This document shows, in pieces, positions 27,395-64,000 of a stretch of DNA of 64,000 nt (the first letter of the stretch is position 1; the number at the start of each line of letters is the position of its first letter). The DNA lies in assembly GCA_011033025.1 (NCBI GenBank), contig WFMF01000176.1:1-64000 (forward strand). The letters run 5' to 3'. The notes below the pieces were generated by a model. That model was given only the letters and a program-made list of their open reading frames with translations, had not been told where the DNA came from and made no database searches. The position numbers and the translations under genes are program-made. This DNA is from Beroe forskalii (Eukaryota; Ctenophora; Nuda; Beroida; Beroidae).

Positions 27395-30300
27395 ATGAAG
27401 CGCAGTGGAGGGAGGAAGCGTAACGTACAAGAAGATGTCTTCAACAAGGTAAGAGGTTATTTAATGTTTGTTCATGACACAGGTGTCGCTTTATGTGGAG
27501 AAATGAAGATCATTCTGAAATTTCTGACTCACGTGGATAATTTCCATTACCTTGTATTTTTCATTATTTCATCTCCCTTCCGTAAAAACAAATCTTTCCA
27601 AATCCATTATTTTCAGAGCAAAGAACGGCTGCAGAAGAAAGAGAAAACAATGCCGGGAACATGCCCGATGGGTGGATCAAGCACATCAGCAGGCAATTCA
27701 AAGCCAGAGTTTACCATGCAGGAAGGTTTGTTGTATCCTAAACCCAAGTTAGGGTGGGTATTCCTGCTGAGAGACCGGGAAGACGGGACAGCTAACCTGA
27801 TACAGAGAACAGCAGCCTGCTCAGCGATAAGGAGATTAGTAAGGGACACTTGGAAAGGAATTGACTCCAGTAAGATTAACGTGGTGGCAGCTTTCCAGCC
27901 CAAAGCATGGGAATACCTGATGAAAGACTGTCAAGACTGGTCCGACACGGCGGGAACGTTGGAGAAGAGGAAAGAAGGCCGCAATTTGGTGGCGGGGAGT
28001 GACAAGTTCCTGAACACAGACGATACTGCTTGTGTGGTCATCCGTTCTGAAGCCATCCACTGGACTGGGGTCAGTGAGAGAATACACTGCTTGATGAATG
28101 AACTCAGCGATATCGCAAAAACCAACGACCTACAGCTCTGTGTGACTGAGTGTGCCGAAAAAGACGTTTTCAGTGGGGTATTCATTGACGGGTTGGCCAA
28201 CAAATCAGACGCTAACTCAGTGCAGAAAACGGTGTCCTGTGCACCGGGAGTAAACGGCTGGCCAGGTGCCAGCTACATGCTGCTGCAGAAGTTCAAATTC
28301 GATTGGGGAATCCTGGGGGACATGAGTGTGGCTGAGATATGTAAGATGGTGGGGAGACAGAATAACAACGTCATCATCGCAGAGGACAACCCTAGGGCTC
28401 ACAACAGATGCGTCCACATGGCTGATCCTAACCCCCACTCTCTGTCGAATCTCCGGCTGCACCGGCTCACCATGCCCTACAGTGTGACACCCCCACTCAA
28501 TGTCAAGAGTAAAACCGGGGGCAAGAACAAGGAAACGGGCGTGGTCTACATGGCCATGACAAAGTCCACCAACTACATAATGAAGCTCTTGGAGAACATG
28601 GTCGGAGATCAGCCTGGGATTACTAAAGATAGTCTCATAGCAAAAACCACCTGTTTAAACGGCGCGTTCTTCTATGTTCCTGCCCGTCAGGAATTCTATG
28701 ATGAGCATATTGAGCAACCGTTCAAAGGCGAAGATCTCCTGCTGGCTTATTTCCGAGTGAAGCCGGTCTGCAACCAGTACCTGTTCTACAACCACAAGGA
28801 ATACATGAACAGGATGAACAACTTCAACTACTCCGACCCCGACTACATGGCTCCGACAACGAGAGTGCTGCGGTTGATCCGGTCAATGTTTGAGAATTGG
28901 GAAGACACCTGGTTCCATCCGAGGAGTGCAGAACCCCTACCCCATTTGGAGCAACTTGCACCACCAACAATTATGGCCGAATCCCTTCGAGTGAGGCAAG
29001 CAGAAGCCATCTATCTTACTCTTTCCGAGGTTTACACAATGCCAGTGTCGGATAAAACCACTAAGTTCGAACTTTGGGAATCATACGGTGTCATTCAAGA
29101 CCTGTTTCGGATTAACCCCTCTGACATACTTGCAGGGAAAATGCCGGTGTATGGGCTGGGGGTTGGGCAACTGGCAATGTCTTACCTGAAAAGTGATCCC
29201 TCAGGCAAGGAGCTATCTGTGGAAGAAATTTTTGCTTACTCGAAGAAACTGAGCGCTGCCTCAGGGTACGGACATGTTGTTCCTGATTACCATAAGATAG
29301 TAGCAATGGGTCTACCAGCGTTCTTAGACTATCTTGATAGTTACATTGGCGGAGTGATTGACAATGAGTTCTACAAATGCTGTAAGAGGGTCTACGAAGG
29401 CATCCAGCAGTATCTGATAAACTACTCAAACCTCGCCCTGTTCCTCGCTAATTCAGGGTATGCGGCGTGTGCTGATGATGTCGACTTCGAGCTGCTTCAC
29501 AGCCATGATAAAGCTAATCTCCTGGCGATGGCTGACAGGTTAAAGTGGCTAGCTACGGGTCAATCTGATCAAACATATACTGTAACGGCTGGCAAACCGA
29601 GGAATTTACTGGAAGCCGTCCAACTGCTGTTCACGATACACGCCTGCTTGCACATGAACTGTGAGCCGGTCTCTGTTGGGAGACTTGATGTTATTCTAGA
29701 GGATTACATTGATCTGGAGGATACAGGTTATCCCTCAAACCAAGATATTATTGATGCATTCTGGATAAAGCTCGGAGAGAAAGTACAGCTAAGTAGGAGC
29801 ACGCGGCTGGATCTGTATGCAGTTGGTGACATTGCCGTTCCTTACGCAAGCGATGGCCGTTTCCCAAGGGGTGATTCATGTAACCAATGGGTCCAGCAGG
29901 TCTCAGTTGGAGGCTATGACTCTCAGGGGAAGGAACCCTCCGCCAAGAGACTTGAGATTGCCAAGCTGTGTCTCCATGCGGCCCGGAGACTCCCACTGAA
30001 CGCACCATGTCTCTCTCTACGAGTTCACAAGGGAATAGCGGAGACGCTGCTCTGGCATGCCAGCAAAGCCATACTGAGTGGAGGGGCTCATCCCGTCATC
30101 CTACACGATGACAGGATAGTGCCAGCACTGGTGGCACGCGGCTTCAAGGAGGAGGATGCTCTCAACTTCTGCTCTGATGGGTGCTATGAGCCGCTCGTTC
30201 CAGGAAAGTCTGAATTCTCATTTTGCTATGTCTCACTTCTTCAAGTTCTTGAAATGACCATCAATAAAGGTGCAACCATGATGGAAGCTGGTCCTGCAGG

Positions 30301-31475
30301 AATGCGTGGATTTGCCGTATCTCTTAAATCTAGGCGAATCCTTGGACGACTTGCAAGATGTCATGAATCAGTTTGGCAAACATCTACGCCTCCAGATGCA
30401 TGATATACTGTCCAGTTTGTTGTCGAGATACGGCAACATAGCATCGGTTTATGCATCACCAATTCTTTCGCCTTTAATTGAGGGATGCATGGAGAGAGGC
30501 AAAGATATTTACGATGGAGGGGCGGTCATCAAGATGATTGCTTGTATGACAGTTGGCTTTGCGAACACTGTCGACTCCTTGTACGCTATTCAAGAGCTGT
30601 GCTACGGTCACAAATCAATGACCACACTCGAGTTCCTGGTGAGTGCGTTGAAAAGTGACTGGGGATATGGGCTCCAGGAACCAATACAAGACCCTGTTGA
30701 TGGGGGGAAGGCCCAGTATGTGAACAGTCAAGAAATGAAAACACTGAGGGATTACGCCCTGAAGATCCCTAAGATGGGGATGAAAGACGCAGAGTGTAAG
30801 TGGGTCGATGAAGTTCTACCACATCAGCGTGAGGGACTTCTTTCTATCAAGGAAATCGCAACATGGTTAGCTAAAACCTGCGTGGACGCCTTCAATGATG
30901 TCATAGAGAATGATAAGTTCCCGTTATGCCAACAGATAAAGGACTTGCAAGCCCAACACAACGGAGAGTTCCGCTTTGTGCTAGGTTCTGGAACATTTGA
31001 GGGATATGTGGGGTGGGGTCAAGGTGCTGCCGCATCAGCAGATGGGCGAAGGAAGGGCCAGCCTTTGGGGTCTGATATGAGTCCTTCTCCAATACCCCAG
31101 GATCTACCAGATACTCCGGCCAGAAGAGGGAACATCTACGATATCATGGAGTATTGGGATATCCCTGAGCTGAAAACAGGGTTTCCTAATGGCTGTGAAA
31201 TTGACTTGAATATCGGAGAGGATACAGATGAAGCAGCTTTGACTGAATTCCTAAAGAACTACGCGGAGTCCCAGGAGAATCTTGGAGGAAACATCGTGAC
31301 ACTAAGCTGCGGAGACCAGGAGACATACCGAGCAGCCATGCAGAACCCTGAGAAACATGACCTCGTCAGGGTGAGGACGGGAGGGTGGACGGAGTTCTTC
31401 ATTTCCTTCTACTCAGCACACCAACTCCAGCACATGAGGAGGATGTGGGCGGACATAGAGCCAAGGAAAGAGTAA
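27395..31475 (+). CDS. DyP-type peroxidase / glycyl radical enzyme fusion
   Basis: Two exons (27395-27448 and 27617-31475; donor AAG/GTAAGA, acceptor TTTTCAG) give about 1303 residues (spliced numbering) if one base near 30305 is skipped. Residues ~60-380 are a DyP-type (DypB-like) heme peroxidase: FIDG (Asp209), GASYMLLQKFKFD, SVAEICKMVGR, likely proximal heme ligand AHNR (His280), likely distal Arg301 before MPYSV, and the final strand GAFFYVPA. Residues ~430 to the end are a glycyl radical enzyme: GHVVPDYHKIVAMGL, catalytic loop DGCYEP (Cys874, codon 30182-30184; Glu876), SADGRRKGQPLGSDMSPSP, and C-terminal radical loop VRVRTGGWTEFF (radical Gly codon 31383-31385). Cys-x-Glu, not Cys-Cys, places it with the dehydratase/lyase/decarboxylase group rather than pyruvate formate-lyase; the substrate cannot be told. 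Such enzymes need a radical-SAM activase, and none is seen here. A near intron-less body suggests bacterial ancestry with an acquired 5' exon. No clear targeting peptide. Confidence 0.88.
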
Positions 31476-32565: not shown

Positions 32566-35500
32566 TCCTCCGTAGTTAAAGATCAAATGGAATCCCGTGC
32601 ATATGGAATGTTAATACGAAGTTTGGAGTGGTTTTGGCTACTTTGGACTATTTAGAAACTATTTAGACGTGGCGACAATTTTTATTTCAATGTCGCCACC
32701 CATTTTGGGCCACGCCCATTTTTGGCACTTTGCGCATGGCCCAAAAATCGAAAAACTAGAATGAATCCCTATATAACCAATGTGTTACATCGATTTTATT
32801 GTAAATTGACCCGAGAAACACGATGCAACCAACGTTTTTGCTCCCCGAGGTTCCTGTCAGGAGATTAGGTGACCTTGCCCACTTTTGGCCTTGCGTGAAG
32901 GCTGATTTTCGAAAGATATAACTTTCATGGAATAAGTATCATGTGATACATCAAACTTGTAGTAAATTGACCCGAGAAACATGATGCAACCCACTATTTT
33001 GCTCTCCGAGGCTCCTGTCAGGAGATAAGGTGACCACGCCCACTTTTTGGCCTTGCGCGAAGGCTGATTCTCGAGAGATATAACTTTCATGGAATGAGTA
33101 TCATGTCATACATCACAATTGTAGTAAATTGACCCGAGAAACACGATGCACTACACTATTTTGCTCTCCGAGGCTCCTGTCAGCAGATAAGGTGACCACG
33201 CCCACTTTTTGGCCTTGCGCGAAGGCTGATTTTCGAGAGATATAAATTTCGTGGAATAAGTATCATGCGATACATCAAATTTATGGTAAATCGACCTGAG
33301 AAACATGATGCAACCAACGGTTTTTTACTTCTCGAGGCTCCTTTCAGGAAATAAGATGACCACACCCATTTTTTGGGCGTGTGTAATTTTTCAAGGAAAC
33401 CTATAAGAAACAAGAAACCAACCTTTTTGAGGTCCTGAACGGCCCTCTGATAGTCCTGAATGACCCTCTCGCAGTCCTGAAAGAGCCTATCACGTTCCTG
33501 AACGACCCTCTCGCCGTCCTGAACGACCCTTTCACACTCCTGAACGACCCTTTTGCAGTCCTGAACGACCCTCTCATAGTCCTGAAAGACCCTATCACGG
33601 TCCTGAACGACCCTCTCACAGTCCTGAAAGACCCTATCACGGTCCTGAACGACCCTATCACAGTCCTGAACGACCCTCTCACAGTCCTGAAAGACCCTAT
33701 CACGGTCCTGAACGACCCTTTCACAGTTCTGAACGACCTATTCACAGTCCTGAACGACCCTCTTACAGTCCTGTACGACGCTCTGAAGTCCTGAACGACC
33801 CTTGCACTCTCCTGAACGACCTTTCACACTCTTGAACGACCCTTGCACTCTCCTGAACGACCCTCTAACGCTCCTAAACGACTCTCTTACACTCCTGATT
33901 CCACTTACAAACCTACGAGCAACCTTCATACACCCTCGCCCTATGACATGCATTTGCAACCATATTGCACTCACGATAAAACCTCTAGTACTCCTGAGAA
34001 ACCCTCTCACAGTCCTGAACAATCCTCTCACAGTCCTGAACGATCATCTCACAGTCCTGAATGACCCTCTCACAGTCCTGCACGACTCTCTCACAGTCCT
34101 GAAAGATCTTCTCACAGTCTGAAAGATCCTCTAACAGTCCTGAACGACCCTCTCACAGTCCTCACCAGTCAAACTTTCAAGAGTTTTGGAGGGTCGTTCA
34201 GGACTGTGAGAGGGTCGTTCAGGACTGTGAGAGGTTTGTCAGGAGTGTGAGAGGATCGTTCAGGAGTGTGAGAGGGTTATTCAGGGCTATGATAGGGTTG
34301 TTAAGGACTGTGAGAGGGTCTTTCAGGACTGTGAGAGGGTCGTTCAGGACTGTGAGAGGTTCGTGCAGGAGTGTGAGAAGATCGTTCAGGACTGTGAAAG
34401 GGTTGTTTAGGACAGTAAGAGGGTCGTGCAGGAGTGTGAGAGGGTTGTTCAGGACTATGAAAGGGCCGTTCAGGACTGTGGGAGTGTTGTTCAGGACTAT
34501 GAAAGTATGAAAGGGTTGTTCAGGACTGCGAGAAGGTCGTTCAGGAATGTGAGAGGGTTGTTTAGGACAGTAAGAGGGTCGTGCAGGAGTGTGAGAGGGT
34601 TATTCAGGACTATGAAAGGGTTGTTCAGGACTGTGAGAGGGTTGTTCAGGACTGTGAGAGGTACGTTCAGTACTGTGAGAGGGTTGTTCAGGACTGTGAG
34701 AGGGCCGTTCAGGACTGTGGAAGTGTTGTTCAGGACTATGAAAGGGTTGTTCAGGACTGTGAGAGGTACGTTCAGTACTGTGAGAGGGTTCAGGACTGTG
34801 AGAGGGTCGTTCAGGACAATGAAAGGGTTGTTCAGGACTATGAAAGGGTTGTTCAGGACTGTGAGAGGTACGTTCAGTACTGTGAGAGGGTTTAGGACTG
34901 TGAGAGGGTCGTTCAGGACTATGACAGGGTTGTTCAGGACTATGAAAGGGTTGTTCAGGACTATGAAAAGGTTGTTCAGGACGGTTTGAGGGTCGTTCAG
35001 GAATGTGAGAGGTTCGTGCAAGAGTGTGAGAAGATCGCTCAGGGCTGTGAGTGTGGTCACCTCATCTGCTGACAGGAGCCTCGGAGAGCAAAATAGTGGG
35101 TTGCATCGTGTTTCTCGGGTCAATTAACTACAAGTTTGATGTATCACATGGTACTCATTCCATGAAAGTTATATCTCTCGAAAATCAGCCTTCGCGCAAG
35201 GCCAAAAAGTGGGTGTGGTCACCTTATCTGCTGACAGGTGCCTCGGAGAGCAAAAAAGTGGGTTGCATCGTGTTTCTCGGGTCAATTAACTACAAGTTTG
35301 ATGTATCACATGGTACTCATTCCATGAAAGTTATATCTCTCGAAAATCAGCCTTCGCGCAAGGCCAAAAAGTGGGCGTGGTCACCTTATCTCTTGACTGG
35401 AGCCTCGGAGAGCAAAAAAGTGGGTTGCATCGTGTTTCTCGGGTCAATTTACTACAATTTTGATGTATCACATGATACTTATTCCATGAAAGTTATATCT

Positions 35501-35858
35501 CTTGAAAATCAGCCTTCGCGCAAGGCCAAAAAGTGGGCGTGGTCACCTTATCTCCTGACAGGAACCTCGGAGAGCAAAAACGTTGGTTGCATCGTGTTTC
35601 TCGGGTCAATTTACCATAAAATCGATGTAACACATTGGCTATATAGGGATTCATTCTAGTTTTTCGATTTTTGGGCCATGCGCAAAGTGCCAAAAATGGG
35701 CGTGGCCCAAAATGGGTGACGACATTGAAATAAAAATTGTCGCCACGTCTAAATAGTTTCTAAATAGTCCAAAGTAGCCAAAACCAGTCCCAACTTCGTA
35801 TTAACATTCCATATGCACGGGATTTTGATATCGACCATTTGATCTTTGACTACCGAGG
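32566..35858. mobile_element. 3.3 kb fold-back element
   Basis: The outer 700-800 bases on each side are inverted copies: GATCAAATGGAATCCCGTGC at 32581 mirrors GCACGGGATTTTGAT...CCATTTGATC at 35815-35844. Within each arm, tandem ~130-bp units carry CCCGAGAAACACGATGCAAC, CTCCGAGGCTCCTGTCAG and CACGCCCACTTTTTGGCC (32800-33360, mirrored 35050-35600). The interior is a 21-bp array, CCTGAACGACCCTCTCACAGT on the left (33430-34160) and its complement on the right (34185-35045), turning over near 34170. A unique island lies at about 33895-33990. No transposase is encoded; the long frames are repeat translation. Confidence 0.88.
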
Positions 35859-42740: not shown

Positions 42741-45700
42741 AACGGAACTGTCAACTCGAAAGGCATATCAAAGGCTACAGCCGATGTAATCTGCTCGGAG
42801 GTAGGACATGAATATGCAGTGGATTGGTTTGGAATACCTCCTACCTGTGAGCGTAATGACGTCTTGTCAAACACAGCTAAGTTTGATTGGACTATTGACT
42901 GTCCTGACAGAGCTACCCAGTTCAGGCAATGCCATGCGAGAGTGGATAAAGTAAGCCATGATTACTGTATGATGACGAATCAAAATAGATTGCCACATCT
43001 CGCTCTCGTTTGCAAAGGTAAGCGGGTTGTATTGCTTTCCTGTAAATTTCACTGCAGAATCATAGGGCATAATGGAAAAGGGTTCACGTACTAAATACTT
43101 TAGTACTTCATTCATTGGACATTAATTGAACATAACAATGAGGGATCATCGAGATACATACATTCCCGCCCTGGTTATAAATTGAACATAAACAATAAGG
43201 CATCATCGAGATACATACATTCCCGCCCTGGTCAGGGCGGGGCAGTATCCAAGAAGCCCGACTACCATCGCGGAATTCCGTGGTAAAATTCCGCCCGGAA
43301 TCAACAGCGGAATCATGGTCGGAAGATTCTGCGCGGAATTAACAGCGGAATTCCGCGCGGAAATTTTTCCGTAGCCGACCTCGTTTCCCCCGACCTCGTG
43401 TCTTATACCCGCAGAATCTTCTGACCATGATTCCGCTGTTAATTCCGCGCAGAATCTTCCGACCATGATAACCCCCGCGGTAATAAAAAAAAGACTGGCC
43501 AGGGTATACATGAGAGAAACGAAAGTCACAGGGTGTATAATATCATGATCCTTGGGAGAAAATTTAAAACGATGAGATCTCAAGAACGGGAAATGCTACA
43601 GCCATGATCGAGGTCACGTTTTGTTCAGAAGACCTCTACATGCAATTTTGCCATATGCCCATATACTTATAGACGTGATAATTTTAGGACCCTATTTGTG
43701 TCAGGGTAAACTCGAAAACCATAAAAGATACAGACATGATCGAGTGCGGGTTTTTCTGCTAAGATGGGAGTGTGGCATATGCTATGTAAGAAGTTTCGCG
43801 GATCGATTTTTTGCTGTTATGACGTCATTAAAATCGATGAAATTACGATTTTTATCGAAAAACGTAATTTTGGACCACTTGAAGCACTGTATCTGAAAAG
43901 TTTTCTACCGCGTCATGATTTCCCGACCTCTGTAGCATTTAGACCTCGAGTTCTAGCCACAAAAGAAGTTTCATGGTGATTGGTGAAAAATGAGGTCGTG
44001 GGAGGCCTTACTAGTCCAAAATATGGTGACTTTGAGCATCTATATCTCAGCTCACGAACATTGCTCCGTCTTTTCCAGATGTATCAATGTTCTTTCTCAA
44101 TCAAATATCAAGGGTAAAAAGTTTCAAGTCGCCCCAATTTAAGGGAAAGGTGTGGTGGCCCCTCAAAACGTAAAGTGCAGGGCTGTTGTGCTGTTGACTG
44201 AATCAACATTTTGATTCACTTGGTACTTGAATAGAACAAGAAATGGCCCATGGAAATGAAGTGAGTTCACGTGGACGTTTTGTAGAAATTAGGCAAATTT
44301 AAAATTTGAGTCTTAAGACCGAATTTTCGACTTGATTTGATTGAAACAAGTCACAATGCAATAGACAAACATGATTCCAGGTTCATATGACAAATTTTGC
44401 ACGTTAGTTCACATCGACGTTTTGTAAAAATTAGGGAAATTACTACTTCAACGATTTTAACAAATGATTTCTATTTCGAACGTCTAATAACGTATGTTTA
44501 GATCATAATAACCTCTTACAATTAAAAAGTGGCGCCCCTGTGACTCTGTGAGGGGGTTGATATGACGACCGCTTGTGGTTTTGTCTGTGGTATATATAAT
44601 TATATAATAAACTTATAAAAACATAACGAGGGAGGGTGTTTACTGTTTTTGGGTGTTTACTGTTTTGGGTGTTTACTGTTTACTGTTTTGGCTGTTTTTT
44701 TGCTCAATAGTAAACCCTTACCTACTTTTTCGAAATTACAGGAGTGTGTGTTGTTAAGGCCAACTTGGGCAACTACGTCCAGGAAAAGTGTCAAGGTTTA
44801 CCTTATATATTTGACGTGTACAAATGTGTTCAATCAGACCAATATTACTCTGTTTATGTGGCAAGTTACTATGGAGCTTTATTGGGAAATCACATGGAAC
44901 CCAGCAAAGATTTCTTCTTGACCAACAGATGTCCTGGTGACAAAGGGTATTTTCAGACATGTGGCTTTATCCTACCCCCCAAAAAAGGGGCAGCAGCCAA
45001 TTTTGTAAGTGCTGAAGACGATATAGCACTATGTGAGTATTTTATTTGCAGAGTGAGGAAAATATCAGTTTTTTCTAAAAGATGGCAATTCATAGCTTTG
45101 CATTATTCATCTTTCTGTGAAGATCTCTTTAAGCTTAAGTCGTCTTATTCTGATTATGAATGTGACATACAAAGAATGACTGAATATTGCCAATTAAAAT
45201 CTCAAAAAATGGTAATTAAGCAATGTGATATGATTTGTCAAGATACTGATAGTTGCATGGATGAAGCTGTTTGCAATGGCATCCAATATGGGATGTATTG
45301 TCCAAAAAGTCGTCAGCCTTTTTTTGTGAAAGCAGGCAATATTTGTGATGAAATCTACAATTGCGACAATAGAATAGATGAAAAGCATTGCTTTCGTGAT
45401 CCAATCATCGAAAACGTGTATGGCAATAAATGGACAAATGATACTGAAATGCAGAATATTTGCTGGAAATCCAAATCTAATAAATTGACAGACTATATCG
45501 CAATCAGACCTATAAATTATACAAGATGCAGTCCGTTGGAAAAAAATGACAAAACGGGTACTTATGTCAGTTATTGTAAAAATTTCCACGACCAATACAA
45601 CTGTAGTGATGAGTGGCGTGGCACGGTGAGATGTCCGGTTCATGGGTACTCCACAACCATCTCGAAGGTAGTTGTGTGCAACCTTGAAATCACCAGCCTC

Positions 45701-48213
45701 GAGCTCTGTGATGACATGTTTGATGTGCAATGTGTGGAGCCATCAGCCACATGTAAAGTACACAAGCACCTTCTCTGCAATGGCGTTAGTGATTGTAGTG
45801 ATGGTAGTGATGAGAAGGCAGATGAATGTGTCCACCTCTTACAGGAGACATGCGATCGCAGGTAAAATAACAATGGCTGGCCTATTCCATAAACGCAAAC
45901 AATAGCTTGCCAATTAGGCAATTAATTCAGACAGCAAAACATTAAACTTAGCTTATTGCAGTGCAATAACAACATGTAATGCGGAATTTTACCAGTTTTA
46001 CCAATAAATGCACTATAATAACTAGCAAAAAGTGGTGCAAATAATTTTAAAACATTTGTGTTAAAAAAGATTATAGTTATTATAACAGAGATACTGACAT
46101 ACTGTATCATCTGTTCAGAAAAAACACTTTCAGGTACAGACACAAGGAAAAACTGAAAATTCCCTTCACTTGGCTCAATGATGGCATAGAGGATTGTACA
46201 TCTGGCAAGGATGAACATGGAATCTGGCCAACGTGTAAAGCTCTAGACCATGTTCGCATAGTAACTGATAATACAACATGCACAGATGCCTTCATTTGTG
46301 ACTCTGAGGATTTTGTCGAATTTGAAAACCTTTGCGATGGACAATACAGCTGTGGTGCTGAGAGAGTGGCTTGCCATGCTGCCAGAGTAAGCCAGGACCC
46401 ATTATCCTCTGCTGTGCATTACCAAAACACATTTCATCTCCTCCATTGTCAACCTGGTATCAACACTCGTGCGACTTTACCAAGTCCATGCAATGAGAAG
46501 GACTTAGAAAGCCCAAACCACCCAACTTTTGGGGTATCTGTACCAACAAAAATAAAGATACCTTCAGCAAAAACTAACTGCAAATATCTTTTTGGTGAGT
46601 CATACATCTTCATGAGCTGTTCTCAACGATGTTTTGATGGAGATTGCCCGCTGAAGCCTCTTCAGAAAGACTCATGCTCAAAAGGAACATTTAAAAGGTA
46701 TTTTTCATTATCAAAGAATGGGCATATATCAATACTTGCGAAGCTGAGGGATCAATTTCAAAACAACTTTTTTAGTTGTAGTAATTTGAAATGTGTCACA
46801 TATGACAAAGTCTGCAATCTTGTTAATGATTGTGGGGACAATTCAGATGAAGTGGATTGCATTAATCATTTCCAGTGCAGCACAACAAAAGAACTAATTA
46901 ATTCTGACAAAAAATGTAATGGTATCATTGATTGTATTGATTATTCTGATGAGTGCAATTTGGAGTGTGGAAAATATATTATCACAGGACGAACCTTGAA
47001 AATATCAGCATGGGTCATTGGTTCTTGTGCAGTAATTCTTAACGCCTTCATTTTGGTGAAACTGTTATTAGATTTCTATTCCAACATATCGAATGCTGGT
47101 TTCAATAAGCTTCTTCGGATGATGGTCACCATTGGGGATTTTCTGACAGGTGTCTATCTGTTCTTGATTGCTGTCACTGATTCCATTGTGTTTGGTGACT
47201 CATATTGTAGAAAACAGTTGTTTTGGCTAAGCAGTAATTATTGTGCAATTCTTGGTGTCGTCAGCACTGTTGGAGCAAATATTTCTCTATTTTCTATGGC
47301 CTGTCTAAGCATCTTTAGGGCTATAGATATGCAAAATTTGTCAAGAGAAAACAGCAAGTATATCAAACTTAAGATGTTTTTGCTTTTCAGTGTTATTGCC
47401 TCGGCATCAATTTTAATATCAGTCACCCCACTGCTGGAGAGATTTGAAGACTTCTTTGTTAATGGTATCACATATGACCAAAAGATAAGACTTTTTGTAT
47501 CTGCAGTTGACAAGGAAACTCATAAGAAGGTTATCAATACATATCATGGAAAGATTTTAAAGAAATCGCTGAGTTGGAAAGAAATACACAGACTCACCGA
47601 CATGATGTTTACAAGTAACTATGGTCCTTCTGTTACAAGACGGAACATTCATTTCTATGGGAATGATGGAGTGTGCCTCTTCAAATACTTTGTCAAGAGT
47701 GATGATCCTCAGAAGTTATTTGTCTGGATGAATCTGTTTCTGGTCTTTTCCAGTTCCATTGTGATTACAGTATGTTATGGTGTAATTATAACCCGGGCCA
47801 GAACAGCTGCTAGCAATGTTCAGTCAATGATGGCATGTCAGAATAAAAGTATAGCCAAGCACACAGATCGTTTGCAGAAAAACATAACCCGTATAATTAC
47901 AACAGACTTGGTCTGCTGGATACCTTTTCTGCTGACATGCTTACTCCATTCCTTTGAAGTATTGGATGCCACATTTCTTTACCCTGTGCTCTCTATAATA
48001 GTGTTACCAATTAACTCTGTGATCAATCCTTTGATTTATGATGATTTTGTTCGGAAGCATGCAACAGTCATGAAGAAATTTGTGATATCATGGTATCTCA
48101 AAATGAAGAGGACTGCATGCATATCTCTTGGGTTTGGTCCGAATAAAGAGAGGTCAGATTCGTTGACAAGTGAAACCAATCGTCCATCTGACATGGAGAC
48201 AAAGGACCTTTAA
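42741..48213 (+). CDS. SRCR/LDLa ectodomain seven-helix receptor (class A GPCR), 5' incomplete
   Basis: Three in-phase exons: 42741-43017, 44742-45861 and 46134-48213 (TAA), about 1158 codons. Exon 1 resembles an SRCR domain (ATADVICSEVGHEYAVDWFG, ending HLALVCKG). Exon 2 begins with a Cys-rich region of unknown type and ends in LDL-receptor class A modules (CDNRIDEKHC; CNGVSDCSDGSDE). Exon 3 adds further LDLa modules (CNLVNDCGDNSDEVDC; CNGIIDCIDYSDEC) and then seven helices from about 46990 to 48050. The TM6 motif CWIP (47914-47925) and TM7 NPLIY (48025-48039) mark a class A receptor; the DRY position reads FRA. The architecture resembles LDLa-bearing relaxin-type/LGR and molluscan GRL101-like receptors, but no leucine-rich repeats are visible. 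It is expected at the plasma membrane. Ligand unknown. The signal peptide exon is missing. The 7TM region is in one exon. Confidence 0.85.
43236..43500. repeat. Inverted repeat in the receptor gene intron
   Basis: Arms such as GGAATCATGGTCGGAAGATT (left) and AATCTTCCGACCATGAT (right) pair around TTTCCGTAGCCGACCTCG. The preceding 43125-43235 contains a direct duplication of CATCGAGATACATACATTCC. Confidence 0.8.
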
Positions 48214-61529: not shown

Positions 61530-64000
61530 ACCTCCACCATCCCATGTTACTCACCCTTATCAAACCTGAGCCACCATGAGCCTCCACCATCCCATGTTAC
61601 TCCCCTTAGCAAACCTGAGCCACCCATGAGCCCATCCCATGTTACCAAACCTGAGCCATCATGAGCACCATCCCATGTTACTCACCCTTTATCAAACCTG
61701 AGCCACCCATGAGCCTCCACCATCCCATGTTACTCACCCCTTAGCAAACCTGAGCCACCCATGAGCCTCCACCATCCCATGTTACTCACCCTTAGCAAAC
61801 CTGAGCCACCCATGAGCCTCCACCACCCCATAGCCACCCATGAGCCTCCACCATCCCATGTTACTCACCCTTAGCAAACCTGAGCCACCCATGAGCCTCC
61901 ACCATCCCATGTTACTCACCCTTATCAAACCTGAGCCACCCATGAGCCCACCACCCATGTTACCACCCCAAACCTGTTGAGCCTCCACCACCCCATGTTA
62001 CCCTTAATCAACCTGAGCCACCCATGAGCCTCCACCATCCCATGTTACTCACCCTTAGCAAACCTGAACCTGAGCCACCCATGAGCCTCCACCCATCCCC
62101 ATGTTACTCACCCTTAGCAAACCTGAGCCACCCATGAGCCTCACCATCCCATGTTACTCCCCATGTTGAGCCTCACCACCCCATGTTACTCAAAAACCTG
62201 AGCCACCCATGAGCCTCCACCACCCCATGTTACTCACCCTTAGCAAACCTGAGCCACCCATGAGCCTCCACCACCCCATGTTACTCACCCTTAGCAAACC
62301 TGAGCCACCCATGAGCCTCCACCACCCCCATGTTGAGCCTCCACCCCATGTTACTCATTAGCAAACCTGAGCCACCCATGAGCCTCCACCATCCCATGTT
62401 ACTCACCCTTATCAAACCTGGAGCCACCCATGAGCCTCCACCATCCCATGTTACTCACCCTTAGCAAACCTGAGCCACCCATGAGCCTCCACCATCCCAT
62501 GTTACTCACCCTTAGCAAACCTGAGCCACCCATGAGCCTCCACCATCCCATGTTACTCACCCTTAGCAAACCTGAGCCACCCATGAGCCTCCACCATCCC
62601 ATGTTACTCACCCTTATCAAACCTGAGCCACCCATGAGCCTCCACCATCCCATGTTACTCACCCTTAGCAAACCTGAGCCACCCATGAGCCTCCACCACC
62701 CCATGTTACTCACCCTTAGCAAACCTGAGCCACCCATGAGCCTCCACCACCCCATGTTACTCACCCTTATCAAACCTGAGCCACCCATGAGCCTCCACCA
62801 TCCCATGTTACTCACCCTTATCAAACCTGAGCCAAACCACCCCATGTTAGCACCCCCATGAGCCACCCATGAGCCTCCACCCCCCATGTTACTCACCCTT
62901 TAGCAAACCTGAGCCACCCATGAGCCTCCACCATCCCATGTTACTCACCCTTAGCAAACCTGAGCCACCCATGAGCCTCCACCATCCCCATGTTACTCAC
63001 CCTTATCAAACCTGAGCCACCCATGAGCCTCCACCACCCCATGTTACTCCACCACCCCTTAGCAAACCTGAGCCACCCATGAGCCTCCACCACCCCATGT
63101 TACTCACCCCCCTAGCAAACCTGAGCCTGAGCCTCCACCATCCCATGTTACTTACCCTTATCAAACCTGAGCCACCCATGAGCCTCCACCATCCCATGTT
63201 ACTTACCCTTAGCAAACCTGAGCCACCCATGAGCCTCCACCACCCCATGTTACTCACCCTTAGCAAACCCTTAGCAAACCTGAGCCACCCATGAGCCTCC
63301 ACCTGAGCCACCCATCCCCATGTTACCATCCACCACCCATGTTACTTAGCAAACCTGAGCCACCCATGAGCCTCCACCATCCCATGTTACTCACCCTTAT
63401 CAAAACCTGAGCCACCCATGAGCCTCCAAACCCCATGTTAGCACCCTTACCCATGAGCCTCCCACCATCCCATGTTACTCACCCTTAGCAAACCTGAGCC
63501 ACCCATGAGCCTCCACCACCCCATGTTACTCACCCTTATCAAGACCTGAGCCACCCATGAGCCTCCACCACCCCATGTTACTCACCCTTAGCAAACCTGA
63601 GCCACCCATGAGCCTCCATAATCCCATGTTACTTTACCCTTAGAGCCACCCATGAGCCTCCACCATCCCATGTTACTCACCCTTAGCAAACCTGAGCCAC
63701 CCATGAGCCTCCACCACCCCATGTTACTCACCCTTATCAAACCTGAGCCACCCATGAGCCTCCACCACCCCATGTTACTCACCCTTAGCAAACCTGAGCC
63801 ACCCATGAGCCTCCACCATCCCATGTTACTCACCCTTAGCAAACCTGAGCCACCCATGAGCCTCCACCACCCCATGTTACTCACCTTAGCGAAACCTGAG
63901 CCACCCATGAGCCTCCACCACCCCATGTTACTCACCCTTAGCAAACCTGAGCCACCCATGAGCCTCCACCACCCCATGTTACTCACCCTTAGCCTGAGCC
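61530..64000 (+). repeat. 51-bp minisatellite array, runs off the window
   Basis: More than 40 units of about 51 bases containing GAGCCACCCATGAGCCTCC and ATCCCATGTTACTCACCC. Units alternate between CCTTAGCAAACC and CCTTATCAAACC, and several are truncated. The array begins nine bases after the hairpin element. A period divisible by three keeps long false frames open on both strands. Confidence 0.97.

Follow-up and report, generated by a model that had tools for sequence, protein, structure and literature searches.

One gene of Beroe forskalii encodes a DyP-type heme peroxidase (DyP) fused to a complete glycyl radical enzyme (GRE), and this gene belongs to a family whose GRE is constantly accompanied by a DyP. 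We favor the reading that the DyP may make the GRE protein radical from peroxide, replacing the activase, because the partnership is constant, the radical residues are conserved, and no radical-SAM GRE activase was found in genomes holding only this type of GRE. We regard this reading as evenly poised between right and wrong. The fuller proposal, that of an aerobic GRE branch with one clade in animals in which DyP compound I would replace the S-adenosylmethionine (SAM) radical activase, is one we hold slightly more tentatively.

We analyzed a 64,000-nucleotide stretch of B. forskalii contig WFMF01000176.1, here called the window. The DyP and the full GRE form one protein that is read across two overlapping open reading frames (ORFs), 27395-30403 and 30306-31475, both on the forward strand (Table 1). 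In the first ORF, Pfam searches matched Dyp_perox_C (PF20628, E 1.4e-12, residues 263-431) and PFL-like (PF02901, E 5.3e-43), and the NCBIfam model TIGR01413, Dyp_perox_fam, matched residues 109-431 (E 5.1e-15, under the model's curated cut-off). The second ORF holds the remainder of PFL-like (PF02901, E 7.8e-19); its Gly_radical match is weak (E 0.0028), under the Pfam cut-off. The first-pass annotation had described a DyP joined to a full GRE in a single gene and had named the Pfam families Dyp_perox, PFL-like, and Gly_radical as a check; the matches to PF20628, TIGR01413, and PF02901 across the two ORFs bear it out, with Gly_radical the one sub-threshold Pfam family. Several NCBIfam GRE models also match, every one under its cut-off, so we take the window protein to be none of the named GREs. 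PDB sequence matches of the family's DyP part are DypB-type DyPs, at E 6e-5 and weaker. Exon-by-exon family searches of the 216 Mb B. forskalii assembly returned neither a further PFL-like match nor a further one to Dyp_perox_C. The window also contains an LDLa/7TM gene.

The coding span of the DypB-type DyP-GRE is confirmed as 27650-31475(+), with one frame break. The earlier gene span of 27395-31475 holds at its end and is revised at its start: the protein probably begins at the ATG at 27650, close to the homologue starts, rather than at 27395, and the span includes a putative intron as well as the break.

Table 1. Features of the DyP-GRE gene in the window.
Feature	Position	Strand	Basis
Putative 5' intron, GTAAGA...TTTTCAG, 168 nt, in phase, within or beside the 5' UTR	27449..27616	+	Read from sequence, inferred
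DypB-like DyP-type heme peroxidase domain, with the Asp of FIDGLANK, the proximal His of RAHNRC, and the Arg of LHRLTMPYS	27650..28690	+	PF20628, TIGR01413, PDB sequence matches, conservation
GRE barrel, N-terminal and central parts; both Trp of FENWEDTW, GHVVPDY His, catalytic loop SDGCYEP (Cys-Tyr-Glu)	28691..30304	+	PF02901, conservation, family-only residues
Frame break	30305..30345	+	ORFs, comparison with Hydra protein, hand count
GRE C-terminal part with radical loop LVRVRTGGWTEFF; stop 31473-31475	30306..31475	+	PF02901, weak Gly_radical, conserved GGW

The two ORFs lie in different frames, and the homologous reading switches from one to the other between approximately 30305 and 30345, within a stretch that is about 8 nt short of the Hydra protein by hand count. 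A sequencing error, an allele, or a young pseudogene may account for the break. A partial second copy of the 5' part (residues 53-293, 98% protein identity) lies inside a duplicated stretch of contig C253. The break itself, together with the truncation of the C253 copy by a stop at the breakpoint, would fit a decaying gene in B. forskalii, with function retained only in relatives. Against such decay, neither window ORF contains a further stop, and over 206 codons the two copies differ by 15 synonymous and 3 nonsynonymous changes, which points to purifying selection. We consider decay unlikely, if a serious alternative for this one gene, and it would be compatible with the DyP acting as radical generator in the family as a whole.

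A protein search scored 7999 candidates, of which 187 match at E ≤ 1e-3. Both Pfam domains are present in 119 of the 120 matches listed (of 187), the exception being P0098 (858 aa). Among the matches listed are proteins of Clytia, Hydra, Acropora, Macrobrachium, Halocaridina, Mytilus, and one fungus, as well as of bacteria that include Lewinella, Archangium, Saccharothrix, Gallaecimonas, and Nannocystis. A second search with an animal alignment returned only six proteins, all already known, and no further taxa. The contigs that carry the animal homologues reach 56 Mb in Hydra, 21 Mb in Macrobrachium, and 5.9 Mb in Acropora. These large contigs, the size of the B. forskalii assembly, and the LDLa/7TM gene rule out a chance fusion or bacterial contamination and uphold the animal host already proposed for the window gene. 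A phage origin is likewise ruled out, viral contigs being without any relative.

We built a quick FastTree phylogeny of 81 chosen rows, midpoint-rooted, which gives no direction of transfer. One branch with support of 100 sets apart 19 rows, comprising the window protein, the named animals, and further rows, and the window protein groups with Hydra and Clytia (7 rows, support 100). The animal members (Hydra, Clytia, Acropora, Mytilus, the shrimps, and the B. forskalii window) thus appear to form one clade, which is new here. The fungal row falls among bacterial rows, and a long-branched EukProt row lies outside the animals. The fungal position agrees with the transfer reported in the available excerpts of PMC5041501.

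As had been read from its sequence at first pass, the DyP part of the window protein has a proximal His together with a distal Arg and Asp, and the GRE part has both a Cys-x-Glu loop and a radical loop, here RxGGW. We counted residues in an alignment of 121 rows, consisting of the window protein and the 120 matches listed (of 187). All 121 rows have the Cys and Glu of Cys-x-Glu and both Trp in the stretch FENWEDTW, and the two Gly of RxGGW occur in 114/114 and 115/115 rows with letters there. The proximal His is found in 120/120 rows and the Arg in 118/120. At the distal acid position, 117 rows divide into 86 with Asp, 29 with Glu, and 2 with His (Asp or Glu in 115/117); shrimp proteins and one whole bacterial branch are among those with Glu. 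The active-site Cys, the radical-loop Gly, and the heme His are therefore invariant wherever rows have letters, an observation that is also new. Given its PFL-like barrel, Cys-loop Cys, and C-terminal radical-loop Gly, the window protein would be classed among the GREs, and the proximal His, distal Asp, and Arg of its Dyp_perox domain suggest DyP class B/P. The motif of pyruvate formate-lyase is a Cys-Cys pair with an RVSGY loop; the window protein, with a single Cys in DGCYE and the loop RTGGW, is not a pyruvate formate-lyase proper.

Comparison of 18 fused and 12 GRE-alone members with 8 canonical GREs identified residues that are specific to the family (P0078 numbering). W371 is common to fused (17/18) and GRE-alone (12/12) members and occurs in none of the canonical GREs; W672, D774, E1040, D1065, E1112, W1166, and E1168 are likewise shared by the two sets and absent from all eight. 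The radical loop reads R-x-G-G-W-x-E in place of R-V-A-G-Y, and the differences are fixed in both the fused and the GRE-alone branches. The predicted structure of P0078, a bacterial fused member distinct from the window protein, has a pLDDT of 91.9 and a pTM of 0.92; it contains a PFL-like 10-stranded barrel that matches 1r8w, 5i2g, and 5fau at TMt 0.74-0.79.

A genome scan returned 73 bacterial loci. Because its patterns were taken from the GRE part, a GRE of this type without a DyP could have turned up. All 66 judgeable loci have a DyP, fused in 52 and encoded by a separate adjacent gene in 14; the other seven (L052, L060, L067, L068, and L071-L073) are too fragmentary to judge. Frame changes interrupt some of the 52 fused genes (e.g., L019, L044, and L066). 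In the GRE-alone sister branch, a separate DyP gene lies directly behind the GRE in 14/14 judgeable loci (13 by HMM, plus L063), its frame overlapping the GRE end or starting at most 43 bases from it, and loci L069 and L070 show only the GRE end. A DyP was found in 14/14 genomes from this set (12 GRE-alone loci plus L052 and L060) compared to 3/14 named control genomes. Overall, the GRE-DyP partnership is well supported. The separate DyP resembles class A, EfeB/deferrochelatase (1.5e-28, one member searched), and the fused DyP resembles DypB by profile and PDB sequence comparison, so that two DyP classes appear to serve one GRE clade.

For comparison with canonical GREs, we took 8 control loci from the 38 non-DyP GRE rows listed (144 records matched the plasmid search). 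An activase is annotated within 4 kb in 8/8 of these plasmid loci, and none is annotated in two DyP-GRE plasmid loci. An HMM of eight activases, run over the 73 DyP-GRE loci, gave one good match, in L045, where a canonical PFL lies next to it; weak matches in L014 and L019 are without the CxxxCxxC motif, and that in L035 has E 0.25. This search rules out a dedicated activase near the DyP-GRE gene.

We then considered whole genomes. Of the first 49 genomes, three have a match to the activase model TIGR02494 above its cut-off, and two more come near it (approximately 128 bits plus a second piece). Some TIGR02494 match at E ≤ 0.001 occurs in 39/49; below the five clear ones, the best reaches 51 bits, and 13 weak matches read for motif (L100-L112) comprise 10 AmmeMemoRadiSam-like and 3 MoaA-like proteins. 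Full-length canonical GREs (PF02901) occur in the same five genomes as the activase, one of which (G005) has two of each, and the other 44 have only the DyP-type GRE (5/5 against 0/44, Fisher p 5e-7). Metagenome-assembled genomes (MAGs) are incomplete; among the 33 isolates in this set, 4 have both a canonical GRE and an activase and 29 have neither. We searched a further 21 genomes, which one repeat reduces to 20, at an activase threshold of E ≤ 1e-12; the single activase found belongs to a Desulfobacca MAG, and the contig that encodes it also carries a canonical GRE. In total, 67 of 69 genomes have a GRE match (two of the further 20 lack one at threshold), and TIGR02494 is clear in six, exactly the six with a canonical GRE, which lies close by. 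In these whole-genome searches outside the fungi, no radical-SAM GRE activase was detected in any of the 61 genomes holding only the DyP-type GRE. The B. forskalii genome has one GRE and one DyP, and no GRE activase was found in it (best E 0.31); its clear radical-SAM matches are, presumably, given their motifs, a lipoyl synthase, two viperins, and an arsenosugar-type enzyme. Activation by a radical-SAM GRE activase, a usual mark of GREs, thus appears to be missing from the family outside the fungi, though an unrecognized activase may act in it. An NrdG-like protein occurs in 7/49 genomes and an AmmeMemoRadiSam-type radical-SAM enzyme, for which we know of no established function, in 13/49; 29/49 have neither of these nor a GRE activase.

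If the DyP generates the radical, the predicted ferric heme would react with H2O2 (or a peroxyacid) to form compound I, which would oxidize the GRE through aromatic residues. DyP compound I can oxidize Trp and Tyr at a distance. The candidate relay consists of the family-only Trp at P0078 positions 371, 672, and 1166, the last beside the radical-loop Gly. Oxidation would yield a glycyl radical and, given that the Gly and Cys of GREs exchange a hydrogen atom, an active-site thiyl radical, which would then probably carry out elimination chemistry of the diol-dehydratase or choline-lyase type. A heme reaction of the O2 era would in this way do the work of the anaerobic 4Fe-4S/SAM activase, like the diiron-tyrosyl center of class I ribonucleotide reductase, in which an O2-made radical feeds the thiyl radical. 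The two DyP classes, the family-specific radical loop, and the confident P0078 model would all support the DyP as generator. Against it, O2 cleaves the glycyl radicals known so far, no more than 86/117 rows have Asp as the distal acid, and the window copy is frame-broken.

Alternatively, the DyP module might protect the glycyl radical by clearing peroxide or O2-derived species around it, the radical being made by an unrecognized activase encoded elsewhere in the genome. The NrdG-like or AmmeMemoRadiSam-type proteins could serve in that capacity, and their presence, like the putative PFL activase reported for Chaetomium in the available excerpts of PMC5041501, favors such protection and counts against the DyP as generator; induction by peroxide, from the same source, also fits. 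Protection still needs an activase, however, and none was found in 61/61 genomes with only the DyP-type GRE or in B. forskalii, whereas each of the six canonical-GRE genomes has one. The 29 genomes without any of the three radical-SAM types and the family-specific radical loop argue in the same direction. The protective role suggested in the first-pass annotation is thereby weakened, and we consider it improbable. The DyP as radical generator is a role that the annotation did not raise.

Coupled catalysis, in which the peroxidase oxidizes a substrate, the GRE domain acts on the product, and the radical has a separate origin, draws on the genes near the bacterial loci. These encode PLD-like proteins, non-specific nucleases (some fused to a trypsin-like domain), cytidine deaminases, DUF2608 proteins, and PF04185 phosphoesterases, and at least one lies within 8 kb at 34/66 loci of the ORF cluster, a set different from the 66 judgeable loci. 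Such neighbors suggest a pathway and hint at phospholipid- or nucleic-acid-derived substrates, in a neighborhood that is not uniform. A known defense system is ruled out: PADLOC matched only a PLD-like and a trypsin-nuclease neighbor, and the DyP-GRE, the GRE-alone protein with its DyP, and the deaminase gave no match. Shared radical chemistry explains two DyP classes on the same GRE more easily than a shared substrate does, and coupled catalysis leaves the absent activase unexplained, making it a quite improbable account. It is more doubtful still that the GRE barrel is past radical chemistry and serves the peroxidase as scaffold or binding domain. The missing activase would fit, as would the many hosts that, judging from organism names, are aerobes; however, a scaffold would hardly retain the Cys and Glu in every row and the radical-loop Gly in every row with letters, the GRE-alone branch included.

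GREs are regarded as anaerobic enzymes that radical-SAM activases turn on. A widespread clade found in many aerobes and in animals that keeps its radical residues intact, has a peroxidase as constant partner, and goes without an activase would represent a new way to a protein radical. It would link GREs with O2-dependent enzymes such as class I ribonucleotide reductase, and Hydra, corals, mussels, and shrimps would possess a radical enzyme that has yet to be explored. With the split pairs (e.g., those of Flavobacterium or Ensifer), the idea could be tested directly, by combining the GRE and the DyP as two proteins.

The first-pass annotation knew of no described protein with this architecture, which does not hold: fungal and bacterial DyP-PFL fusions were published by 2016 at the latest (PMC5041501) and noted again in 2021 (PMC8469222). 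In its available excerpts, PMC5041501 cites a 2014 encyclopedia entry for the fusion, records it from prokaryotes and eukaryotes that are only distantly related, and regards its significance as elusive; it also reports that DyP-PFL is induced by peroxide and peroxyacetic acid and that Chaetomium, which carries a DyP-PFL gene, has a putative PFL activase. Among the open-access papers listed in our literature searches, none deals with an animal DyP-GRE, the split operon, or peroxidase activation of a GRE. What is new here, the fusion itself being known, is the animal clade, the invariant residues, the split GRE and DyP branch, and the activase absence.

The DyP-PFL proteins of Chaetomium cochliodes and Xylaria have the same two domains (PMC5041501, PMC8469222), in the same order according to PMC5041501; compared to the available excerpts of those papers, animals, the split GRE and DyP operon, and the activase absence appear only here. 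By profile and fold, the nearest relatives of the family's GRE part are the diol/glycerol dehydratase and choline TMA-lyase GREs (1r8w, 5i2g, and 5fau), with which it shares the Cys-x-Glu loop and a His at the glycerol dehydratase His164 position. Unlike them, it has an RxGGW rather than an RVAGY loop, no activase, and an attached DyP, and in a profile alignment it does not keep the glycerol dehydratase positions His281 and Asp447. Like DypB-type DyPs (3vee and 9obr), the DyP part keeps the Arg and proximal His, and in the window also the Asp; unlike them, it has Ala, Ser, Gly, or Thr in place of the Asn beside the distal Arg (N246 of DypB), often Glu as the distal acid, and a fused GRE. Class I ribonucleotide reductase has a different metal module, and we claim no membership by sequence; the likeness is one of proposed mechanism, in which an O2- or peroxide-dependent metal center would feed a thiyl radical in a related barrel.

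A truncated second copy of the 5' part of the DyP-GRE gene is present in the animal's own assembly, on another contig (C253, positions 203302-204181; stretches L085, L086 and L093). This copy sits within a duplicated stretch, and its end adjoins a degenerate CCCTAA-like repeat.

The region at window positions 32780-35611, 1.3 kb 3' of the DyP-GRE gene, is a large, foldback-like structure. In the same interval, 162-nt repeats lie on both sides of 21-nt tandem arrays and, judging orientation by eye, are mutually inverted. Near the end of the window, the 51-nt tandem array has a strong GC skew of -0.58.

Repeat arrays and receptor-type domains in the window
Feature	Window position	Remark
21-nt tandem arrays	33432-35051	between inverted 162-nt repeats
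LDL-receptor class A repeats and rhodopsin-family 7TM receptor domain	44744-48213	
51-nt tandem array	61832-63993	~44 copies

The alignment column that holds the distal DyP acid, the Asp of FIDGLANK in the window protein, contains Glu in 29 of 117 rows, including shrimp proteins (motif FREG) and one bacterial branch (motif SEN).

On an Asticcacaulis plasmid (L074), genes for a DUF2278 protein and for one of the SUMF1/EgtB type lie ahead of the DyP-GRE gene. At two other bacterial loci (L030 and L040), a neighbouring gene encodes a trypsin-like domain fused to Endonuclease_NS, and at L063, where the GRE stands alone with a separate DyP gene, a trypsin-like domain fused to a PLD-like domain. These trypsin-like fusion neighbours look like an uncharacterised effector set.
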